From Tautonia plasticadhaerens (GTDB taxonomy: Bacteria > Planctomycetota > Planctomycetia > Isosphaerales > Isosphaeraceae): a DNA stretch of 64,000 nucleotides. The notes under the pieces are model-generated. The model had not been told where the DNA came from, made no database searches, and was given only the letters and a program-made list of their open reading frames with translations. Location: contig NZ_CP036430.1 of the NCBI RefSeq assembly GCF_007752535.1, forward strand, positions 1 to 64,000, in the 5' to 3' direction. Positions 1 to 12,400 of the stretch are shown here, in pieces (position 1 is the stretch's first letter; every line of letters begins with the position of its first letter). The translations under genes and the position numbers were made by a program.

Positions 1-1647
1 GTGTTGCAGAATTCAGGCACCGGGGACGGGGAGGCCGGACCGGGACCAGCCCTGGGGACGCTCGAAGCGGGGCCGAAGACCGTGGACAAGACCGACCGAG
101 ATCGCACCCCTTCGCTCTTCGACGATCCCGAGGTCGGGGACGGCGGCGACGCCCAGGGGGAGGGGGCCGATGCCTCGGCCGAGCCGGCCTTCAAGGACGA
201 GCTGAACCTGGCCGAGTTCCCGATCGCCGCCCTGGCCGACCGGATCCCCGACGGGCAGACCACCCTGGTCTTCGAGGACCGACTCGACCGCCGGGACGGG
301 CCGCCGATCGTCCGCCGGCTGACGATCATGGGGACGGCCAAGCACGGCCTGCCGACCTCGATGGACGACGAGGTCCTGGTCGGACTGATCCAGCTCACCA
401 AGCGCTGGAATAATTTCACGGAAGCAAAGGTAAATTTTTCCAGGTATGAATTGATCGAGCTGCTCGGCTGGCCGCAGACGGGACAGAGCTACCGGCGGAT
501 CGAGGAGGCACTGCACCGCTGGGTCGGGATCGTCCTGTCGTATGAGAATGCGTGGTGGGACAATGCCGCCAAGAGCTGGGTGGATGAAAATTTCCACGTC
601 CTCGACAATGTTTCCCTGTACGACCGCGAGCGGCGACGCCAGACTCGGGGCGCAAGTTCAACCCAGACAACCGGTTCGAGGAGGAGAGGCAAACGCGGGA
701 ACGCCCCGCCGCCGCTGTCGAGCTTCAAGTGGAACGAGGTCATCTTCCGGAGTTTCCAGAGCGGAAACCTGAAGCAGATCGACCTGGAATTCTACCTCAG
801 GCTCCGCTTGCCGACGACAAAACGTGTGTTCAGATTCCTTGATAAGCGATTCTACCGCTGTGACCGACTCGAGTTCGACCTGCGCACCCTGGCCTGCGAG
901 CACATCGGCCTGAGCCGCTCCTACAAGCCGACCGAGCTGAAGCGGCGGTTACGGCCGGCGATCGCCGAGTTGGAGCAGCACGGCTTCCTCGAGCCGACGG
1001 CCGAGGAGGACCGCTATATCCGGAAGGCCCGGGGGCACTGGCAGATCGTCTTCGTCCGGGGCCCCCGGGGGCGGTCGCCGATCGAGCCGACGGCCGAGGA
1101 GCTGGCCGAGCTGGCCGAGGCGCTCACCTCCCGGGGGGTGGCCATCCGGACGGCCTCGGAACTGGTCGAGCGGCACGCCCCGGAATTCCTCCGGGCCAAG
1201 ATCGCCATTTTTGACTGGATGTCGGCCAGGGATGATAAACGGCTGGCCCGGAACCGGGCCGGGTACCTCGTCTCGTCGATCCGGGAGGATTACGGCGCCC
1301 CCGACGACTACGTCCCCCCCGCCGACGCCGATCAGCTCGCCCGGGCCGAGGCCGCCGTCGCCGAGGAGGAGCGCCGGCGTCGGGCCGCCGAGCTGGCCGA
1401 GGCCGAGCGACTCCGGGCCGCCGAGGCCGCCGAGGCCGAGCGACAGGCCGGCCTCCGGGCCCGCTGGGCGGAGCTACCCAAGGAGGACCGCGACGCCATC
1501 ACCGCCCGGGTCAAGGCCACCCACCCCGGCCTCCGACGCTGGAAGACGATGCTCGAGCCCCTCTGCCTCGCCGCCCTGGAGGCCCACCTCGGGGGGGAGA
1601 CGCCCCCCGGACAGGGGTCGCTGTTCACCTCGGATGGCGAAGAATGA
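1..1647 (+). CDS. Plasmid replication initiator protein (RepA/RPA type)
   Basis: Probable initiator of plasmid replication, which would bind the replicon's origin. The 548-residue product starts with GTG at base 1. An acidic, variable stretch of about 75 residues is followed by the conserved initiator core (about 80-360), including 'RRLTIMGTAKHGLPTS' and 'RYELIELLGWPQTGQSYRRI', as in the replication initiator protein A family. After about residue 430 the tail is rich in Ala, Glu and Arg and looks like a charged helix. Codons around 405-445 and 780-850 are AT-richer than the rest. No upstream sequence is visible, so promoter and start cannot be tested. It converges on the next gene with a gap of 41 bases. 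Nearby ParA supports a plasmid. The family call is by eye. Confidence 0.8.
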   Translation: MLQNSGTGDGEAGPGPALGTLEAGPKTVDKTDRDRTPSLFDDPEVGDGGDAQGEGADASAEPAFKDELNLAEFPIAALADRIPDGQTTLVFEDRLDRRDGPPIVRRLTIMGTAKHGLPTSMDDEVLVGLIQLTKRWNNFTEAKVNFSRYELIELLGWPQTGQSYRRIEEALHRWVGIVLSYENAWWDNAAKSWVDENFHVLDNVSLYDRERRRQTRGASSTQTTGSRRRGKRGNAPPPLSSFKWNEVIFRSFQSGNLKQIDLEFYLRLRLPTTKRVFRFLDKRFYRCDRLEFDLRTLACEHIGLSRSYKPTELKRRLRPAIAELEQHGFLEPTAEEDRYIRKARGHWQIVFVRGPRGRSPIEPTAEELAELAEALTSRGVAIRTASELVERHAPEFLRAKIAIFDWMSARDDKRLARNRAGYLVSSIREDYGAPDDYVPPADADQLARAEAAVAEEERRRRAAELAEAERLRAAEAAEAERQAGLRARWAELPKEDRDAITARVKATHPGLRRWKTMLEPLCLAALEAHLGGETPPGQGSLFTSDGEE

Positions 1648-1688: not shown

Positions 1689-2834
1689 TCAGACCCGCAG
1701 GAAGATGCGCCTCCTGTAGAGGTAATAGAGGAAGAGCCACTCGGCGACCAGCACGCCGATCGCCGCGGCGACCGGCGTGAAGTCCCCCGCGATCCGGCGG
1801 TCGGCGAGCGCGGAGACGCCGCCGAAGAAGAACCGGGAGAGCCGGTCGAAGTCGAGGAACCTGGGGACGACGTAGATGGTGATCGCGTTGACGCCGACGA
1901 CCACCAGCGGGAAGGCCCACCGCCGCCAGCCGGCCGCGTCGATCACCGCGTAGAAGAGGGCCAGCAGCAGCAAGCTCCAGCCCCCGGCGACGAGGACGAA
2001 GGAACTCGTCCACAGATTCTTGATGATCGGGAACCAGATCCCCCAGGCCGAGCCGAGGGCCAGCGCCGCCACCCCCGAGGCCGCCAGCCCCGCCGCCTTC
2101 TCCCAGGGGCCCCGGGCCGATCGCAGCCAGGCCCCGGCCAGGGCGCCGAGCAGGGTCGTGGCGACGGCCGGGATCGTCGAGAGCAGCCCCTCGTTGTCGC
2201 CGTATCCGTAGTAGGGCTCCAGGATCTTGCCGGGCAGGAAGTGGCGGTCGACCCAGCCGGCGAGGTTCCCCTGCCGGGAGAAGTCGCCCGCCTCCCCCCC
2301 CGGCGGGGCCACCCCGAGCAGCAGGGCCCAGTAGCCGAGCAGGATCGCCGAGGTCACGATCAGCTGCCCCCTGGCCGAGGTGTTCAGGACGATCACCGCC
2401 GCGAACCCGTAGCAGACGGCGATCCGCTGCAGGACGCCGGCGACCCGCAGGTCGTCCCAGTCGAACTGCAGGACGTTGTTGCAGAGCAAGCCCAGGGCGA
2501 ACAGGAGCACGACCCGGCGGGCGACCCTCCGGTAGGCGGCCCCCCTGCCCTGCCCTTCGAGCTTCCCGATCGAGAACGGCAGCACGGCGCCGACGAGGAA
2601 GAGGAAGAGCGGGAAGATCAGGTCGTAGAACCGGAACCCCTCCCACTCGGCGTGCTCGAACTGCCCGGCGATCGCCGCCGACCGGGGGGAGCCCGACCAT
2701 TCGGCCCAGGCCCTCACCAGGCGGTCGACGCCGACGATCATGAGCATGTCGAGCCCCCGGAGGGCGTCGATCGAGAGGATCCGGCCCGTCGGGGGGGGCG
2801 TCATGGGGGCGGCCTCGGCCTTCGGGTCCGTCAT
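1689..2834 (-). CDS. Integral-membrane acyltransferase of the DUF5009/HGSNAT (NagX-like) family
   Basis: A 381-residue membrane protein resembling the family that includes heparan-alpha-glucosaminide N-acetyltransferase; bacterial members are thought to move acetyl groups across the membrane onto sugars. The signature is near the N-terminus ('RILSIDALRGLDMLMIVGVD'), followed by 'FYDLIFPLFLFLVGAVLPFS'. About ten hydrophobic segments run to a basic C-terminus. The reading frame stays open upstream to 2936, but that part is Pro/Arg/Gly-rich and unlike the family, so the ATG at 2832-2834 is preferred. It lies downstream of the partition genes on the same strand, yet nothing ties it to partition. 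The substrate is unknown; a role in glycan acylation is inference. Confidence 0.78.
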   Translation of the reverse strand: MTDPKAEAAPMTPPPTGRILSIDALRGLDMLMIVGVDRLVRAWAEWSGSPRSAAIAGQFEHAEWEGFRFYDLIFPLFLFLVGAVLPFSIGKLEGQGRGAAYRRVARRVVLLFALGLLCNNVLQFDWDDLRVAGVLQRIAVCYGFAAVIVLNTSARGQLIVTSAILLGYWALLLGVAPPGGEAGDFSRQGNLAGWVDRHFLPGKILEPYYGYGDNEGLLSTIPAVATTLLGALAGAWLRSARGPWEKAAGLAASGVAALALGSAWGIWFPIIKNLWTSSFVLVAGGWSLLLLALFYAVIDAAGWRRWAFPLVVVGVNAITIYVVPRFLDFDRLSRFFFGGVSALADRRIAGDFTPVAAAIGVLVAEWLFLYYLYRRRIFLRV

Positions 2835-2989
2835 GGTGATTCGGTCCGGGGTCGGGTCGGGTCGGGTCGGGTCGAAGGGCCCTTCGAGCCCGGCACCGTC
2901 GCCGGGGGGCCGGGCCCGAGCATACCCGAGCCCCATGCGGGACGCCCGTCGCCATCGGCCCGGGCGACTGGAGGGCCCGGCCGGTCCGG

Positions 2990-3472
2990 TCAGTTCTCCG
3001 AATCGCCCTCGCCCTGTCGGCTGGACCGGCGGTCCCGGGAGTCATAGAGGACCATCGAGCCGACCAGCGGCCGGAGCAGGTCGTTGACGACCTCGGAGCG
3101 GTCCTTGCCGACGTGGATGGCGTAGAGCCAGAGCTTCTTGTCCAGCTCCTCCTCGATGGCGAACATCCGCTGGACCCGGCGGATCTTGGCGGCCCCCCTG
3201 CCCCGGCCCTTCGACCGGCCCGAGCCCCCCGAGGAGGACGAGCCGCCCGACCTCGGGGCCGGCTCCGGGTCCGGCTCCGGCTCGACGTCGGCGTCGGGCC
3301 GCCGGCGATCCTCATCGCCGGGGTCCGAGGGGGCGGGCCCGGCCGGCCGGGAGGAGGAGCCCGCCTCGGCGACGGCCATCCGGCGCTCGAACTCGGCCTC
3401 GGTCATCGCCGGCCGGACCAGGCCGGTCCGGCTCTCGGGGCCCGGGATGCCCCCGCGTCTGGTCGCGCTCAT
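2990..3472 (-). CDS. Small ribbon-helix-helix protein, probable partition partner of ParA
   Basis: A 160-residue protein encoded just downstream of ParA on the same strand (gap 106 bases), the usual place for the DNA-binding half of a partition system. The first 100 residues are a low-complexity acidic and Ser/Gly/Pro-rich region. The C-terminal 50 residues look like a ribbon-helix-helix fold: 'IEEELDKKLWLYAIHVGKDR' followed by 'SEVVNDLLRPLV'. The predicted start is preceded by GGGGAGAG. ParG/Omega-type partners are small RHH proteins that bind repeated centromere sites; here the repeat-rich DNA upstream of parA is the obvious candidate site. The length and disordered N-terminus are unusual. 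The partition role is inferred from context. Confidence 0.6.
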   Translation of the reverse strand: MSATRRGGIPGPESRTGLVRPAMTEAEFERRMAVAEAGSSSRPAGPAPSDPGDEDRRRPDADVEPEPDPEPAPRSGGSSSSGGSGRSKGRGRGAAKIRRVQRMFAIEEELDKKLWLYAIHVGKDRSEVVNDLLRPLVGSMVLYDSRDRRSSRQGEGDSEN

Positions 3473-3578: not shown

Positions 3579-4463
3579 TCACGCGGCGGCGACGGAGTCG
3601 CCGCCCTCCTCCTCGATCGGTGCCTCGTCCTCGATGGGTGCCCCGTCCTCCCCGGCCGGTCGCGGGCGGGCCGGGTCGACCGGCTCTCCCCCCCGGCTCA
3701 GGAACGCCTCGGCCGCGGCCTGATAGGCCCTCGACCCGGCGCCGTAGGGGTCGTAGCGGACCAGCGGCACGCCCCGGGCATAGGCCTCCCGGAACCGGAC
3801 CGAGGTCGGCACCGACCGGTCGAATGCCAACGGCCCGAAATAGGCCCGGACCTCGGCCTCGATCTGGCGGGCGACCAGGGTGCGGTCGACCCGGGTGATC
3901 AGGACGCCGGTGATCTCCAAGGGCCCGGCGTCGGTGAACTCCTGCCGGAGGGCGCCGACCTCCCGGATCAGGTCCTCCAGCGCCTTGACCCCGGCCAGGG
4001 CCGCGACGCACGGGTCGATCGGGATGACCACCTCGCCGACGGCGTAGAGGATCGCCACGTTGAGCGGAGTCTGCACCGGGCTGGTGTCGAGGATCACCGC
4101 GTCATAGCCGTCGAGCCGCCGGAGCACCCGGCGGACCCGGAACTCCCGGCCCTGCCCGAGCCCCTGGCTGCCCCCCATCTGGTCGGAGCAGGATCCGAGC
4201 CGGGCCCCGGGGGGGATCAGGTCGAGCCCCTCGACGACGGTCGGCAGGACCACCTCGGCGACCTCCCGCTCGTCGAGCAGGAGGTCGGCCAGGCCTTCCG
4301 ACGGCATCCCCGACGGGAAGAGGCCGAGCGAGGCGTTGCCCGACGGGTCGGCGTCGACCAGGAGGGCCCGCCGCCCGAGGTCGGCCAGGCTCGCCGCCAG
4401 GTTGATGGCGGTGGTGCTTTTGCCCACCCCGCCCTTCGCGTTGGTCACGGCGACGCTCCGCAT
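3579..4463 (-). CDS. parA: ParA-family partition ATPase
   Basis: A 294-residue Walker-type ATPase that would drive plasmid segregation with a DNA-binding partner. The deviant Walker A motif is at residues 10-17 ('KGGVGKST'), the A' strand near residue 36 ('ALLVDADPSGNASLG'), and a Walker B-like strand later ('AVILDTSPVQTPLNVAI'). The frame is open to 4580, but the ATG at 4461-4463 sits directly before the conserved 'MRSVAVTNAKGGVGKS' and has GGGGGAGGGA about 6-9 bases upstream, so this start is chosen. The C-terminal 45 residues are acidic and probably disordered. The ribbon-helix-helix gene follows in the same direction, and a long repeat-rich noncoding region lies upstream. Confidence 0.92.
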   Translation of the reverse strand: MRSVAVTNAKGGVGKSTTAINLAASLADLGRRALLVDADPSGNASLGLFPSGMPSEGLADLLLDEREVAEVVLPTVVEGLDLIPPGARLGSCSDQMGGSQGLGQGREFRVRRVLRRLDGYDAVILDTSPVQTPLNVAILYAVGEVVIPIDPCVAALAGVKALEDLIREVGALRQEFTDAGPLEITGVLITRVDRTLVARQIEAEVRAYFGPLAFDRSVPTSVRFREAYARGVPLVRYDPYGAGSRAYQAAAEAFLSRGGEPVDPARPRPAGEDGAPIEDEAPIEEEGGDSVAAA

Positions 4464-5297
4464 CGGCCGTCCCTCCCCCGATCGGGCTCCCCCCTGCCCC
4501 GCCGTTCCCCCGGATCGCTCCGGGTGCGGAGGGCCAGGTGAGGCCATAATTGCCTGGGCCGCTTCGACTCGCGGCGACACCTCGGGACCTCGGTCGCCTG
4601 TCCCCTCGAAGCCGAGGGATCAAGCGGCCGACATCCCACGTCATCGAATCGCCTCGATCCCGAGGATCCTCGGTACCCAGGCGTATCGACCGACCCGGGA
4701 CCTCGGCTCCAATCTTCTCCGGTCCCAAGTCGGCCGGTCGACCTCGGTCGGTCGAGGACCAAGTCAATCAAGCCACCCTTCCCGGTCGGTCCCAAGTCGA
4801 ATTGGCGATCGATTGGCCTCGGCAACCTGGTCGACCATCCGCCTTGGTCGCACCTCCGCCTCGTTCGCGGTGCTGCCCTGTTGCCGAGCGGATCGATATC
4901 CCTCGGTCGCTCGATCATCAAGGGACCAAGGGGCAAGGAAGCCTTGGCATCGGTAGGACCTTGGGGTCGGGAAGATGTCGATGCCTCGGTCCATCAGACC
5001 CAAGGAGGCAATCGATCCAGGGACCATGCTTTCCGAGCGACCTCGAAGCCTGTTGGTCCGGGTTTCCCCGCTTCCAAGGGATTCGATCACTCAAGGCCGA
5101 TTGACGACCAGGGCGATTCCCTTGCCTCGATCCGCTGGCCTGTTGGTTTCGAGATGTCTGGGCATCATGGTCGACCGACGGCCATATTCGACGAGTGACC
5201 TGGATCCCCTGGAACTGAGGGAGGTTGACCGACTTGTCCCATCGAGAGCGATGTGGCCGACCGCCATTGACCCCAACATGATCGAGTTCCACAGAAG

Positions 5298-5329
5298 CCG
5301 CATCGACCTTGGGACCAAGGTCGATGCGG
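5298..5329. repeat. Perfect 15-bp inverted repeat with 2-base centre
   Basis: Arms CCGCATCGACCTTGG (5298-5312) and CCAAGGTCGATGCGG (5315-5329) are exact reverse complements around a GA centre. The repeat embeds two copies of the CCAAGG word shared with the surrounding array. It is a candidate protein-binding site or cruciform in the partition/origin region. Confidence 0.85.
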
Positions 5330-5395
5330 TTCCCCGATCCATCGTCCGACCATGATCACTGGGTCCATGGATCGCTTGTTGTCGATTGAACGAGG

Positions 5396-5413
5396 GACCA
5401 AGGCGCCTTGGTC
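5396..5413. repeat. Perfect 18-bp palindrome
   Basis: GACCAAGGCGCCTTGGTC is fully self-complementary and made of two head-to-head GACCAAGG octamers. It looks like the best symmetric version of the recurring motif and may be the high-affinity site of a dimeric DNA-binding protein. Confidence 0.85.
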
Positions 5414-5472
5414 GATTGGCATCAGGGAGCCGGCGATTCCTCGGGGCCTTGGTCAGTGGCGAATCAGGGCGA

Positions 5473-5509
5473 CATGGGGCCCTGGTCGATGGTCGGCCAG
5501 GGCCCCATG
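5473..5509. repeat. Perfect 13-bp inverted repeat with 11-base spacer
   Basis: Arms CATGGGGCCCTGG (5473-5485) and CCAGGGCCCCATG (5497-5509) are exact reverse complements. The spacer is TCGATGGTCGG. It lies at the right-hand end of the repeat-rich region and could form a hairpin or act as an operator. There is no T-run, so an intrinsic terminator is less likely. Confidence 0.8.
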
Positions 5510-5540
5510 GTCGACCGGCCGGCAACAGGCCGAGGCCGAA

Positions 5541-6145
5541 GGACGATCAAGGCTCCAGGGCCGGACCGGGACCAGGGGGTCAAGGGCGCCGGTCGGGCTT
5601 GATCCTTCGTTCCCTCGGTCGCCCGCCCCCCTCGGTGGACCGGGATCTTGATCCCATGGGGCAGGGGCGGCAACCCCGGGCCGAAGGGGGGAGAGCCCGG
5701 GTCGGCCCGGGAGGCCGGGGGGTAGGGGGCACCGGGGCGGCCTGCGAGACCGATCGCCCCGGCCGACCCGGGGGCGGCCGGGGCGAGGCGGGGGCGACTC
5801 GCCCGAGGCCCGGGCGGATGGGATGATCGGTACGCCAGGGCGTGCGGGCCCGGCCCGCCTCGGGGCAGGGGGGCGGTCGGCGTCGCTCCCGGGCGTCCCA
5901 GGTGTCCCGGGTCGCCGACCCCACCGATCCCGGGTGGCGTCGGCCAGCAGATCGGATCGCCCCCGTCGAGGTCCCGGGCTCGCCGACCCGGCCGCCCGAG
6001 GCCGGCCAAGTCCGGGCCCCCGGTCGTCGGGCCGCTCATGACGCCGGGCCTCCCCGAGGTCCAGCAATCCGTCCCCGGGGCAGGGGGGGGGTGAGGCCGT
6101 CCGGGCGGCGGGATCGCATTCGCAACGTCGGGCCGGAGAATTGTT
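5541..6145. other. GC-rich noncoding stretch, no gene recognised
   Basis: All long open frames here are Pro/Arg/Gly-rich and overlap on both strands, as expected for random high-GC sequence. No conserved protein motif, ribosome-binding site or RNA fold was recognised. The repeat words of the neighbouring array stop before this stretch. Confidence 0.5.
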
Positions 6146-6193
6146 TTGACGCGCCGGGGGCGCAGTAGTAGCATCATTGTCACCATGGTGACA
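6146..6193 (+). promoter_or_regulatory. Probable sigma70-type promoter with overlapping 16-bp palindromic operator
   Basis: TTGACG at 6146-6151 is followed after 17 bases by TAGCAT at 6169-6174, a good -35/-10 pair. Just downstream, covering the expected start of transcription, is the perfect palindrome TGTCACCATGGTGACA (6178-6193). The arrangement suggests repression of the giant secreted-protein gene that begins at 6461. The regulator is unknown. The leader would be about 280 bases long. Confidence 0.55.
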
Positions 6194-6460
6194 TGGTATT
6201 GCTCCTCGACGGGCCGGATCCGGTGGGCGTGACGATGCAGCCAGATTCGAATGCACGGGATCTGACCGATCGGCACCCCTCGCCGGATCTCCGACGTGGG
6301 CCGGCATCCGAGGGGCTGACGTTCCTTGACGGGGTAGGTCGGAGCTTTCATGCTCCCAGGAGACTTGCGCAGATCCACCCCGCCGATGCAGCAGCCGCCC
6401 TCATCTCCCCGTCGTCCACCGGTGTCCGACTGCGCCGCGCGACCATAGAGGACCGTAACG

Positions 6461-9400
6461 ATGCGTCCGGGATCCTACTCTGATTCGTCCCCGTCCGATC
6501 GTCCCCGGGGCTGCCGGGAACGGTCCTCGTCATCCCAGGTCCGCAGGGCGAGGTCGCGGCGGGCCGTCCTCGAGTGGCTGGAGCCCCGGGCGCTGCTGGC
6601 CACCGTGCCGACGCCGGTCGTCTTCGACCCGGTTAACATCTCCAGCTCCGATTTCTCCGTCGACGACAACAGCGACGAGAGCAGCCCGTCGATCGCCGTC
6701 GACCCGAACAACCCGCTGCGGGTGGCGGCCGTCTGGACGCGCTGGGACACCGACCCCGACCCGGACTTCATCGGGGTCGAGGGGGCCTACTCCACCAACG
6801 GCGGCGCCTCGTGGTCGTCCTTCAACGTCAGCGGCGGCCGCCTGACCGACCCCGCGTCCAGCGCGGATGACCCGCAGAGCTTCGACCGCGAGACCGACGC
6901 CTCGGCCGCCTTCGACGCCGACGGCAACCTCTACGTCCTGTCGTCCCAGCGGACCGGGGACGCCGGGGCCGGCGTCCTGCTGCTCAACAAGTTCAGCTTC
7001 ACCGGCGCCTCGCCGGTCCGGACGATCGACAACCAAACGGTCCACGGGTGGGCCCAGGATCCGGTGCTGCTGCCGACCCTGGCCGTCGACACCACGGGGG
7101 GCCCCTTCGACGGCACCGTCTACGTCGCCTGGGTCAGCAACGACGACACCCCGCCGGATACCGACAACTGGAACCCGAACGCGATCCGGGCCGTCGCCTC
7201 GTCCGACGGGGGACAGAGCTTCTCCGGCGTCACCACCGTCAACGACGGCGGCAACTTCGGCGACCAGCGGAACACCGTCCCCCGCCTGGCGATCGGCGCC
7301 GACGGGCGGCCGTCGCTTGTCTGGGACGACTTCGGCAGCGGGGCCAACGCCGGCATCCCGTTCGACATCATCGAGTTCGATCGCCTCACCGCCGCCCGGG
7401 TCCTCACGGCCGAGCTGGGGGGCGGGCCGATCCTCGACAACGCCACGACGGAGTTCACCGTCACCGTCCCGGCCGGCCTGACCATCGCCGACCTCGACGT
7501 CCGCCTGGTCGCCGTCCACGACTCGCTCGCCGAGCTGACGATCCAGCTGCAGCGGGGCGCCACGGTGGTCACGCTCGCCAACGCCGACACGCTCGGCGGC
7601 GCGACCATGGGCTTCGGGACGGGGGGCCGCCAGTACGGCGCGGTCTTCGACAACCAGTCGCCCCGGTCGATCGTCGACGCCGCCGAGCCCTACATCGGCC
7701 GGTTCCGGCCCGAGGGCAACCTGGGCGCGTTCACCGGGGATGCGGGGGGCGACTGGACGCTCCGCATCATCGACACCGCCGCGACCGCCGACGCGGGCCC
7801 GCAGAACCTGCTCGACGCGCAGATCACCTTCACCGAGGGCCTCCGGGCCGGCCCCGACCGCAACGTCAACACCAATTCCGGCCTGCGCGCCGCGGCGATC
7901 GTCCGGGGGACGCTCGACGGCGGCGGGACGATCAGCTCGCCGGCGATGCCGCGCGGCATCGGCCCGGCGCCGACGATCGCCGCGGACACCACGGCCGACG
8001 GCCCGAACCGGGGCCGGATCTATGTCACCTACGTCGACCGGGACGCCGCCGACGACGACGACAACCCGGACGACAACACCGACATCTTCCTGGCCTACAC
8101 CGACGACGGCGGGCTGAGCTGGGTCAGGACCGGGGAGGACGGCGACATCGCCGGCCGGGTCAACGACGACCTGGCCGACCGGGACGGCTTCTCCGGGGCC
8201 GACCTCGACCTCGCCGAGGGCTTCTTCGGGGCCACCTCCAGGGGCCGGCCGCAGTTCATGCCCCAGGTGGCCGTCGACCAGCAGACCGGCACGGTCGCCG
8301 TCTCCTTCTACGACGCCCGGCACGACGCCTCCCGGGGGCGGGTGGCGACCTACCTGGCCGTCAGCGTCGACGGGGGGGAGACCTTCGCCCCCCAGACCTT
8401 TGTCAACCAGAAGGAGCTGGTCTTCGACGTCGCCACGGGCACCAACCGGGTCGTCGGGCCGATCCCCGACAACGCGGCGCAGGGCAACACCGTCGGCACC
8501 TTCAGCTTCGGCCACCGCCAGGGCCTGGCGGCCCTGGGCGGCAACATCTTCACCGCCTGGTCGGGCAACCTCAACGGCGGACCCGACGGCACGATTTTCC
8601 TCGACATCCGGGCCGCCCGCGCCATCACCGCCGCCGGCCCCCGGGTCGTCGACGGCACCGCCGGGGTGGTCCCGACCACCGACCCCAGCGGCACCCCCGA
8701 GGCCCGCGAGTTCGTCGTCACCTTCGACCGGCCGATCGACCCGGGCACCTTCAGCACCGACGACGCCTCGATCCGATTCCTCTCCCCCGACGGGGCGACC
8801 TCCCAGTCGATCTCGGCCACCAACGTCGTGCAGCTCAGCGAGACGGAGTTCCGCGTCGAGTTCCCGCCCCAGACCCGGCCGGGCACGTACAGCTACGCCG
8901 TCGGCCCGGACATCCGGGACCTGCTCGGCAACCCGATGGACCAGGACGCCGACGCCACGCCCGGCGAGTCGCAGCAGGACCGGTTCGGGTCGCCCGAGCC
9001 GATCGTCGGCGGCTCCCCGCTGACCGGGCCGTTCGTCCGGGACACCCTGCCGCTGATCGTGCCCGGCCCCCGGGTCGTGGCTACCCGGGCCGTGCTCGGC
9101 GACGGGACCACCGTGCCGACGACCGACCCCGCGCTCAATAGCACGGTCGTCGGCCTCGAGGTCGTCTTCGACCGCGACATGGAGGGCAACACCTTCTCGG
9201 CCGAGGACGTGCTCCGGGTCGTCGGCCCGGCCGGCGAGGTGGACCGCTCCTCGATCGTCATCCAGCAGCTCGACGCCCGGACCTTCCGCGTCCTGTTCGA
9301 TGGTCAGCAGCTCAGCGGCACCTACCAGGTCGTGCTCAGCTCCAACATCCAGTCGGTCGGCGGCTACCTGGTCGACTCGAACCAGAACGCCGGCGTCGAC

Positions 9401-12400
9401 GTCCTGCGGGGCGGCCAGCCGACGACCACCGTCGAGCTGACCTTCGCCTCGGCCGAGGTGCCCCGGACGATCCCCGCCAACGGCTCGGTCGAGTCGACGC
9501 TGGTCGTCGACAAGGCGTTCGAGATCACCGACGTCGACCTGCAGCTGAATATCTCCCACGCCAACGTCCCCAACCTGCGGGCCGAGCTGATCGGCCCCGG
9601 CGGCCAGACGATCCTGCTTTTCTCGGGCGTCGGCGCCACCGGGGACCGGACCGACTTCACCAACACGATCCTCGACAGCGAGGCGGGCCAGCCGATCAGC
9701 TCCGGCACCCCGCCGTTCAGCGACCGGTACCGGCCCCAGGAGTCGCTCTCGGCCCTCAACAGCCCGATCGGGATGCCGACCGAGGCCGGCACCTACACGC
9801 TGCGGATCACCAACACCGGCGGCGTGCAGGGCGCGCTCAACAGCTGGCGGCTGATCATGCGGGAGCGGGTCACCGGCACCGGGATCGGCGAGCCGGTCGC
9901 CGACCGCATCCGGGCCGACTTCCGCATCTTCACCATGGACCCGACCAACTCGCTGTCCAGCAGCACCTGGACGCCGGTCGGTCCGTCCTCGATCGAGGAC
10001 GGCGAGGGGTCCGGACGGGTCACCGCGATCGCCGTCGACCCGTCCGACCCCTCGGGCAACACCGTCTACATCGGCGCCGCCTCGGGCGGCGTCTGGAAGA
10101 CCGACGACTTCCTGACGACCGATGCCGGGGGCCCGACCTGGATCCCGCTGACCGACGCGGTCCAGGCCAACGGCCTGAACGTCGGCGGCATCGCCGTCTT
10201 CGGCCGCAACAACGACCCGGACCAGTCGATCGTCATGGTCGCCACCGGGGAGGGGGACACCGGCACCCCCGGGGTTGGCTTCCTCCGGTCGACCGACGGC
10301 GGCGCCTCCTGGGAGCTCCTCGACAGCGCCGACAACCGCCCGGCGTTCGCCGACCGCACCCGGGAATTCGTCGGCACGACGGCCTTCGCCGTCGTCGCCG
10401 ACCCGAGGCCGACGACCACCGGCGAGGCGATCTTCTACGCCGCCCTCAGCGGACCCCAGGGCGGCGTCTGGCGGAGCACCGACTCGGGCGACACCTGGCA
10501 GCAGCTCCGGGCCGGCCAGGCGACCGACCTGCTGCTCGACCCCGGCAGCGGCACCCCGAGCCTCAACAACCCGGCCGGCAACCTCCAGGTCGTCTACGCC
10601 GCCTTCCGCGGCGAGGGGGTCTACCTCAGCCCGAACCAGGGGCAGCAGTTCAACGTGATGCCCGGCGGCATCGGCAAGCCCCGGGTCCGCGACGGCGACG
10701 GGTTCGACCCGCCGGAAATCCCGGTGACCAACGCGGGAGTCAACCCCAACGGGATCGACGGCCGGATCGTCCTGGCCAAGCCCGCCCTGACCGGGGACGC
10801 CCGCCAGGACCTGCTCTACCAGGGCTGGCTCTACGCCGCGGTGGCCAATCCCAACGGCACCCTCAACGGCCTCTACCTCACCAAGGACCAGGGGCAGAAC
10901 TGGACCCAGCTGCAGCTGCCCAACGAGCCGACCCCGGACCCGAGCAACATCCAGTACCCGATCATCCCCTCCAACGACACCAGCCTGGCCAACTACGACC
11001 CGACGTCCAACGCCGAGTTCTCGCTGGCCAACTACGCCCTGGCGCTGACGGTCGACCCGACCAACCCGAACGTCGTCTACCTCGGCGGCACCACCAACGG
11101 GGGCGGCGAGGCGGCCCTGATCCGGGTCGACTCCACCTTCGTGCACGACGCGCACGCCTTCTACCTCAGCAGCGACCTGCCCGGCGGGCCGGTGCTGCGG
11201 AGCGACGTCAACGGCCCGGCGGTGGTCAAGGCCGGCGACCGCGACGACTTCCCCACCGGCAACGACCCCCGATTCCGGGCGGACGAGGCCGGGATCTTCG
11301 GCGCGAAGATCAACCTCTACCGCGACCCGGCCGACCCGTTCGACGCCAGCTCCACGGTCTACGTCAACAACACCGAGTCGTTCGCCAACACCGGGGCCGG
11401 CGTCCGCTGGACCCCCTTCGCCAAGGCGGGCGGCCCCTTCGCCCCCGCCCTCGACCTGGCCATCGGCGAGCAGACCAACCTGCACCAGGCGTTCAGCCTG
11501 ATCGACCCGCTGACCGGCCGGGGCCGGCTGATCCTCGGCGTCGACAAGGGCGTCTACACCGGCGTCGACGCCGGGGACGGCACGCTGCTGACGCGGCTCG
11601 GCCAGGGCAACACGGTCGTGCCGACCGGCTCGCGCAACGGCAACCTCCAGATCTCCCAGATCTACTTCGGGGCGGTCCAGCCGAGCGCCGCCGCCGCCGA
11701 CGTCGCTGGGGCGCTCTTCTACGCCCAGACTGACGGCAACGGCTCCCCCAGGTCCTCCTCCGACGTCCTCCAGACCGGCCAGCTCGGGTGGGGCAGCCCC
11801 CGGCTGGCGACCGAGACCGGCAGCCTCGGCGGCGCCGGCGTGGCGACCGACCCGACCGGATCGGGCGCCTCCTACCAGTACAACTGGCGGAACACCGGCG
11901 ACGCCCCGAAGACCCCCTTCCTCGCCGGAGAGGACTTCCGGACCGACTTCTTCCTGGTCGACGTCACCCCCGGCAACGGCAACCCGCACGACGTGGTCGG
12001 CCGCATCGACGGCCTGGCTCCGCTGGCGCAGTGGCCGGGCATCGGCGGGGCGAACTTCGCCGTCAACCCGATCAACGCCGACCAGATCGTCATGAGCGCC
12101 CCGGGCAGCGGCCGGGTCTTCCGGACGCTCGACCGCGGCCTGAGCTGGCTGGAGGTCGGCGTGCCGGCGGCCCTAGGCAGCTCCTACTTCCCGGCCCTGG
12201 CCTTCGGCGCCCCCGAGCCGGGCGCCCAGCCCGGCAACGTCGGCGACTACATCGTCGGCGGCAACAACGCCGGGGGGATCTACATCACCCTCACCGGCGG
12301 CGGCGCCGCCGGCAACCAGTGGACCCAGATCAACAACGGCGCCCTGGCCGGCAATACCTCACCGGTCCGGGCGATCGCCACCAACCCGATCCGGGGGACC

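Follow-up and report, generated by a model that had tools for sequence, protein, structure and literature searches.

What is the function of the dense array of short repeats that lies beside parA on a planctomycete plasmid, and which protein would read it? The stretch of DNA analysed here, which we call the window, consists of bases 1-64,000 of the 92,134-bp replicon C5 of Tautonia plasticadhaerens, whose genome comprises 9,395,224 bp in six contigs. The window opens with repA (1-1647, plus strand), which encodes a replication initiator matching the Pfam family RPA (PF10134, E 7.4e-10), followed by a gene for an acyltransferase-like membrane protein (DUF5009; 1689-2936, minus strand), the gene of a 160-aa protein (2990-3472, minus strand) that we propose to be a centromere-binding protein, parA (3579-4463, minus strand), and then the array. 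The parA leader that precedes the array (4464-4579) measures 116 bp here, but 71-83 bp at family loci from other genera. Beyond the array, which occupies 4580-5669, lie a GC-rich spacer (5670-6174) in which zero boxes are decoded and, starting at 6461, a giant open frame of 3,137 aa. About 2 kb without a convincing gene separate parA from this giant frame, and the array sits between the two divergent genes. At the place equivalent to that of the DUF5009 gene, the annotated relatives L001, L003 and L004 have no annotated gene.

We consider it highly probable that 4580-5669 is the centromere, a parS-type site, of a type Ib ParABS partition system. Type Ib centromeres are described, in the portions of the literature compared here, as lying upstream of the operon and being bound by small proteins with a ribbon-helix-helix (RHH) motif (PMC5016525, PMC7308502, PMC9499535). 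The partition ATPase has the expected form, being of the ParA type and lacking the N-terminal HTH domain; its KGGVGKST motif occupies residues 10-17 counted from the annotated start, and the AAA_31 domain (E 3.6e-31) spans residues 1-170. Its best matches among PDB sequences are Soj-type segregation proteins, and they include 1wcv, which we take to be one of these. A small gene lies directly downstream of parA, represented by an orthologue of the 160-aa protein at 21 of 22 related loci, and a repeat array that would act as the centromere lies upstream of the par operon.

The array first came to notice through eleven CCAAGG/CCTTGG hexamers, which the initial annotation had described as centromere- or iteron-like and as occurring in both orientations. 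Both words are indeed present, and the eleven copies fall within 611 bp (4842-5452), where only about 0.28 would be expected because the shuffled window contains 29.25 per 64,000 bp. The six said to be extended to GACCAAGG were found at starts 4842, 4924, 5313, 5396, 5406 and 5447, and direct reading places the GACCTCGGTC variants claimed to the left at 4586 and 4740. Across the whole window GACCAAGG occurs 10 times against 2.06 expected, a count that none of 100 shuffles reaches. Equal frequency elsewhere in the genome had been named as a reason to doubt the array, and here the outcome is divided: the 470 genome-wide occurrences compare with 395 for a reversed control word, so that the word is not special genome-wide, but it is still some 100- to 200-fold denser at the array, depending on the stretch taken. 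The irregular spacing and the extent of 4586-5452 that had been given to the array do not hold. The hexamers are the best copies within an almost continuous array of ~132 degenerate boxes that fills 4580-5669, and with these boxes included, successive units lie 8 or 9 bp apart, with 11/11 hexamers in register.

Each unit of the array is a yCWWGr box followed by a spacer of 2-3 bp, giving one box every 8 or 9 bp in a cyclic 8-state model. Decoding of the 2,000 bp that lie immediately upstream of parA, with small blocks beyond gaps included, yields 135 boxes in the window, 132 of them in the main block at 4580-5669. Box decoding and direct sequence reading both place three more box-like units at 6175-6198, which probably form a palindrome of their own in the next gene's promoter region instead of belonging to the centromere; a 16-bp palindrome, TGTCACCATGGTGACA (about 6178-6193), stands there behind a promoter-like TTGACG...TAGCAT and ahead of the giant gene. 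Inside the array, 15-bp arms flank a 2-nt loop in a perfect inverted repeat (5298-5329).

The periodicity is shared by related loci. Autocorrelation was computed, with no selection of a best window, over the stretch from 60 to 1,260 bp upstream of parA. Pooled over 22 loci, it peaks at lags 8, 16/17, 24/25, 32/33, 41, 49-50 and 57-58, and the pooled excess rises from 0.014 at lag 7 to 0.096 at lag 8. None of the 22 loci has a lag-8 excess below 0.063, and none of 48 control stretches from the rest of the window has one above 0.013. The strongest single lag is 8 at 13 of these loci, 16 or 17 at eight and 33 at one. Among the 2,911 boxes pooled from 21 family loci, position 1 is C in 78% and position 4 is G in 81%, and 1,823 boxes have both. 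The pooled box table is self-reverse-complementary about one axis only (1.02, versus at least 5.7 for the other seven), as a two-fold symmetric reader would give. Perfect 6-bp palindromes make up only 3% of single boxes, and the boxes are therefore mostly oriented, with both orientations in use; TT and AA lead at the box centres, TC, TG, AT and CA come next, and TA and GC are rare. The mean step is 8.23 (n=2,649 steps). Adjacent 9-9 steps number 105 against 140 expected, lower than in any of 1,000 shuffles, a depletion that the decoder itself could cause in part. An even spacing of the 9-bp steps on a larger scale was not found, the variance per 10 steps being higher than in shuffled steps.

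The array is also specific to this place on the plasmid. Across the whole of C5, the 8-bp comb score has a single peak at about 4,300-6,000 (0.097), and its best value elsewhere is 0.032. We also scanned C5 with a fixed leave-genus-out box table drawn up from 2,421 boxes found in other genera. Of 1,835 scanned windows, 18 are positive, with scores as high as +44 nats, and every one of them starts at 4501-5351; no window elsewhere on C5 exceeds -38 nats, and none of 200 shuffles exceeds -28.5. Large ParA loci inspected on three other contigs of this genome (C2, C3 and C4) have no comparable array. The comb score is independent of box sequence and may reveal other such centromeres. The likelihood of a refitted HMM was also tried as a control and rejected as unspecific, since other stretches of the window scored as high: the array gives 164.6, and 94 stretches of 1,200 bp elsewhere in the window have a mean of 102.9 and a maximum of 195.2, probably because 8+1 = 9 fits codon periodicity.

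Repeats of other kinds were noted in passing. A chromosomal parA relative (L114; G000:C1, ~2.0019-2.0024 and ~2.0039-2.0044 Mb) has two blocks of CCGG boxes upstream (~6884-7420 and ~8900-9420 of that locus), each with 22 CCGG and many exact 8+8-bp triplets; an inserted element may have split the two blocks, which are separated by ~1.5 kb, and the downstream partner of this parA relative is a protein of ~240 aa with no Pfam match. On contig C6 of the genome, a palindrome, GTGATCACCCGGTGATC, is repeated about four times (L115, ~2890-3250).

The initial annotation had suggested comparing the region upstream of parA in related plasmids. ParA relatives at E <= 1e-50 occur in 22 of 45 genomes of the family, and the array lies upstream of parA at 22/22 of these loci. 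Of 397 genomes of the class, 21 were found to carry the gene of the 160-aa protein, and all of these belong to the window's own family. Leaving aside L063, whose array is cut by a contig end (69 boxes), the other 20 family arrays hold 105-184 decoded boxes over 0.9-1.7 kb, and at the 21 family loci the array begins 71-118 bp from parA and runs away from it. These dimensions bear on the proposal that the array is an operator only, through which the RHH-like protein would repress either parA or the giant gene, with no part in partition. Such a role would suit the position of the array between divergent genes, and RHH partition proteins do repress their own operon as well, according to the part of PMC5016525 used here. 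However, this many boxes over such a length seem far beyond what repression needs, and it is ParA that adjoins the array at every locus, with the array always extending away from parA. We therefore regard a role as operator alone as improbable.

The sequence of the boxes appears to be under constraint as well. In the best-aligned pair of arrays, L057 and L059 (75% identity), the C and G of the boxes are kept at 217/227 positions versus 213/288 for other C/G (p 5e-12). Within stretches chosen from pairwise alignments of the arrays, box C/G are kept more often in 8/8 comparisons, one pair being counted both ways; p is below 0.05 in six and above it in two. The test is partly inflated by ascertainment, since a C found in a box is more likely to be ancestral, but we judge the gap too large for ascertainment alone. 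Of the 25 indels between L057 and L059, 15 are of 1 bp and four of 8, 16 or 32 bp. Whole-unit indels of this kind, together with the degeneracy of the boxes, are what might be expected of a neutral short tandem repeat or a composition artefact without function. Yet 200 shuffles do not match the score of the array, every locus with the ParA relative has it, and its box C/G change more slowly than their neighbours, and we give the neutral explanation practically no credence.

Could the array instead be the replication origin, its repeats being iterons read by RepA, as the second half of the initial annotation had it? It lies less than 5 kb from repA on a plasmid, and short intergenic repeats often mark origins. 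Clear iterons are, however, found elsewhere: ten copies of TACCGATTCACCGGACA, allowing up to 3 mismatches, stand at about C5:91,371-91,947, just upstream of repA and outside the window, and are followed near repA by a tandem pair of AAGACTTTTGTTTT. These iterons together with the AAGACTTTTGTTTT pair (C5:91,365-91,985, or 7366-7986 of locus L046) are likely the replication origin. The three relatives inspected also have related repeats ahead of repA, in 7, 7 and 8 copies, whereas a search for RepA-type iterons on either strand of 4480-6200 gave 0 matches, and the array keeps its place beside parA. We rejected the array as a set of RepA iterons on these grounds, and consider it very improbable that it serves as the origin.

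With RepA set aside, the leading candidate to read the boxes is the 160-aa protein. It consists of an N-terminal motif, RRGGIPGPxxRTGL, a variable linker and a C-terminal RHH-like domain. Residues R5-P12 and R15-L18 are invariant at the N terminus of the family, and the majority form of the conserved C-terminal stretch is KxRRVQRMFAIEExxDKKLWLYAIHxGKDRSEVVNDLL, a stretch with the strand-helix-helix pattern typical of RHH proteins. When a profile built from 9 of the 21 orthologues is compared with that of six ParG proteins, the two align in register at a score of 19.15, which 0/300 column shuffles reach; this comparison has a single-comparison E of 0.0029 at a probability of only 10.8%. The profile of all orthologues against one ParG is non-significant (E 0.098, probability 0.6%), and BLASTP of the 160-aa protein against ParG gives a weak match (E 0.17 over 38 aa). 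Neither BLASTP nor the profiles found homology to ParG over the whole protein, the alignment being confined to the RHH-like part. Sequence searches of Pfam, PHROG and PDB returned no match above threshold, and NCBIfam returned a sub-threshold match of residues 104-129 (E 0.023) to aCcr1, an archaeal cell-cycle regulator family.

Two AlphaFold2 monomer models, the first from an alignment of 14 sequences and the second from 13 (L080 left out), have two helices and no beta strand, at low to moderate confidence, and a Foldseek search with the predicted model returned nothing below E 3.0. VIA-align of a fragment model lists many rows that by name are RHH proteins, among them CopG, NikR, MazE, VapB, CdbA and MatP, all at Z 4.5 or less; first place, at Z 5.5, goes to a designed protein with no relation to them. 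The 160-aa protein most likely folds as a ribbon-helix-helix dimer, a fold that is suggested rather than proven.

This tentative fold leaves some room for a different reader, such as a host nucleoid protein or ParA itself, all the more so as the AlphaFold2 monomers lack the strand. Locus G011, the 22nd, argues against such a reader. Its ParA has 42% identity, and directly downstream of parA it encodes a different small protein, which is possibly also RHH, given matches that all stay below threshold. Its 74 boxes follow a nearly strict 8-bp period and read CYNNRG, with C and G four bases apart; we excluded them from the pooled box table as belonging to a different system. In this one case, then, the box sequence changes with the linked protein while the 8-bp geometry stays. 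The array is, moreover, unique on C5 and absent from the examined ParA loci on C2, C3 and C4, and we find a host protein or ParA as reader hardly credible. The proposal that the array is centromere-like and would be read by the RHH-like protein is, by contrast, well supported by position, conservation, 8-bp geometry and box constraint.

A parallel to the boxes exists outside partition. The met boxes of MetJ are tandem 8-bp palindromic boxes, each bound by one RHH dimer. They resemble the array here in this tandem 8-bp arrangement and differ from it in copy number and in ParA linkage, being operators in few copies with no linked ParA.

Among partition systems, ParFG/parH of TP228 has the same layout, with its centromere upstream of parA and the gene of its binding protein directly downstream. 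At 5/5 ParG loci (L108, whose ParG is identical to that of TP228, and four ParG relatives; a sixth locus, with a short gap before parA, was left out of this count), lag 8 is the strongest or second-strongest lag in the DNA upstream of parA, so ParG-type loci share an 8-bp period with the array. The similarity of the RHH domains is weak but in register. Like the array, parH is made of degenerate boxes, described as tetramer boxes in the part of PMC7308502 compared, and both proteins have an arginine in the N-terminal tail, the invariant R15 here and R19 in ParG (PMC5389482, likewise in part). Whereas the region upstream of parA in L108 measures 294 bp, the array here has ~132 boxes over 1.1 kb, and its C/G-flanked palindromic box and step of 8 or 9 bp are unlike TP228 parH. 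The binding protein has 160 aa compared with 76 aa for ParG and a different N-terminal motif, and the two ParA proteins align clearly only over the Walker A stretch. At one of the ParG loci, on a Pantoea plasmid (L109, 1601-1831), the PLSDB resistance prediction labels the ParG gene AAC(3)-IVb, evidently wrongly.

The parS sites of pSM19035, read by omega of the delta/omega system, offer a second comparison. There too, contiguous short boxes in either orientation are bound by RHH dimers, and omega requires at least four contiguous repeats, as stated in the portion of PMC9499535 consulted. However, those boxes are 7-bp heptads in sites of 9, 7 and 10 repeats (PMC5016525, in part, with the heptad from PMC9499535), whereas the array has more than 100 boxes at 8-9 bp and lacks a 7-bp period (lag-7 excess 0.014). 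A planctomycete RHH centromere was not among the matches listed for the open-licence PMC literature. The initial supposition of an undescribed architecture thus stands in part: the kind is known, a type Ib RHH centromere, but the length of the array, its mixture of 8- and 9-bp steps and the family of its binding protein are new relative to the parts of the open-licence literature compared. The best reading is of a centromere that would be coated by a new RHH-like protein and is longer than the published type Ib centromeres with which, through those partial sources, we compared it.

We propose the following mechanism for this centromere. The RHH-like protein (2990-3472) would dimerise, with each dimer reading one pseudo-palindromic yCWWGr box, and neighbouring dimers, 8-9 bp apart, would bind cooperatively in either orientation along the 1.1-kb array, resulting in one long protein coat on the DNA. 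The N-terminal tails, with their invariant R15, may then stimulate ATP hydrolysis by ParA, and the plasmid would follow ParA on the nucleoid and so be partitioned. The same protein, bound next to the parA leader, could also repress the operon. A more speculative extension, which we consider possible though rather unlikely, is a chromatin-like centromere in which 100-180 RHH dimers form a continuous superhelix over 0.9-1.7 kb, the 8/9-bp step tunes its pitch, and box number, not spreading, sets the size of the complex.

With this assignment, these plasmids of the Isosphaeraceae gain a complete candidate partition system; for the three named plasmids, annotation gives only ParA and 'hypothetical protein'. 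In a genome comparison, ParA was noted on pPALBO1 of Paludisphaera borealis and ParB on its pPALBO2, a split that, its authors suggested, might keep the two plasmids stable (PMC5352709, in the part compared). As pPALBO1 carries its own RHH-like gene and ~162 decoded boxes, a stability explanation based on the split is probably unnecessary for that plasmid. The twenty uncut arrays, which range naturally from 105 to 184 boxes and share one conserved binding protein, would permit a direct test of centromere length against segregation.
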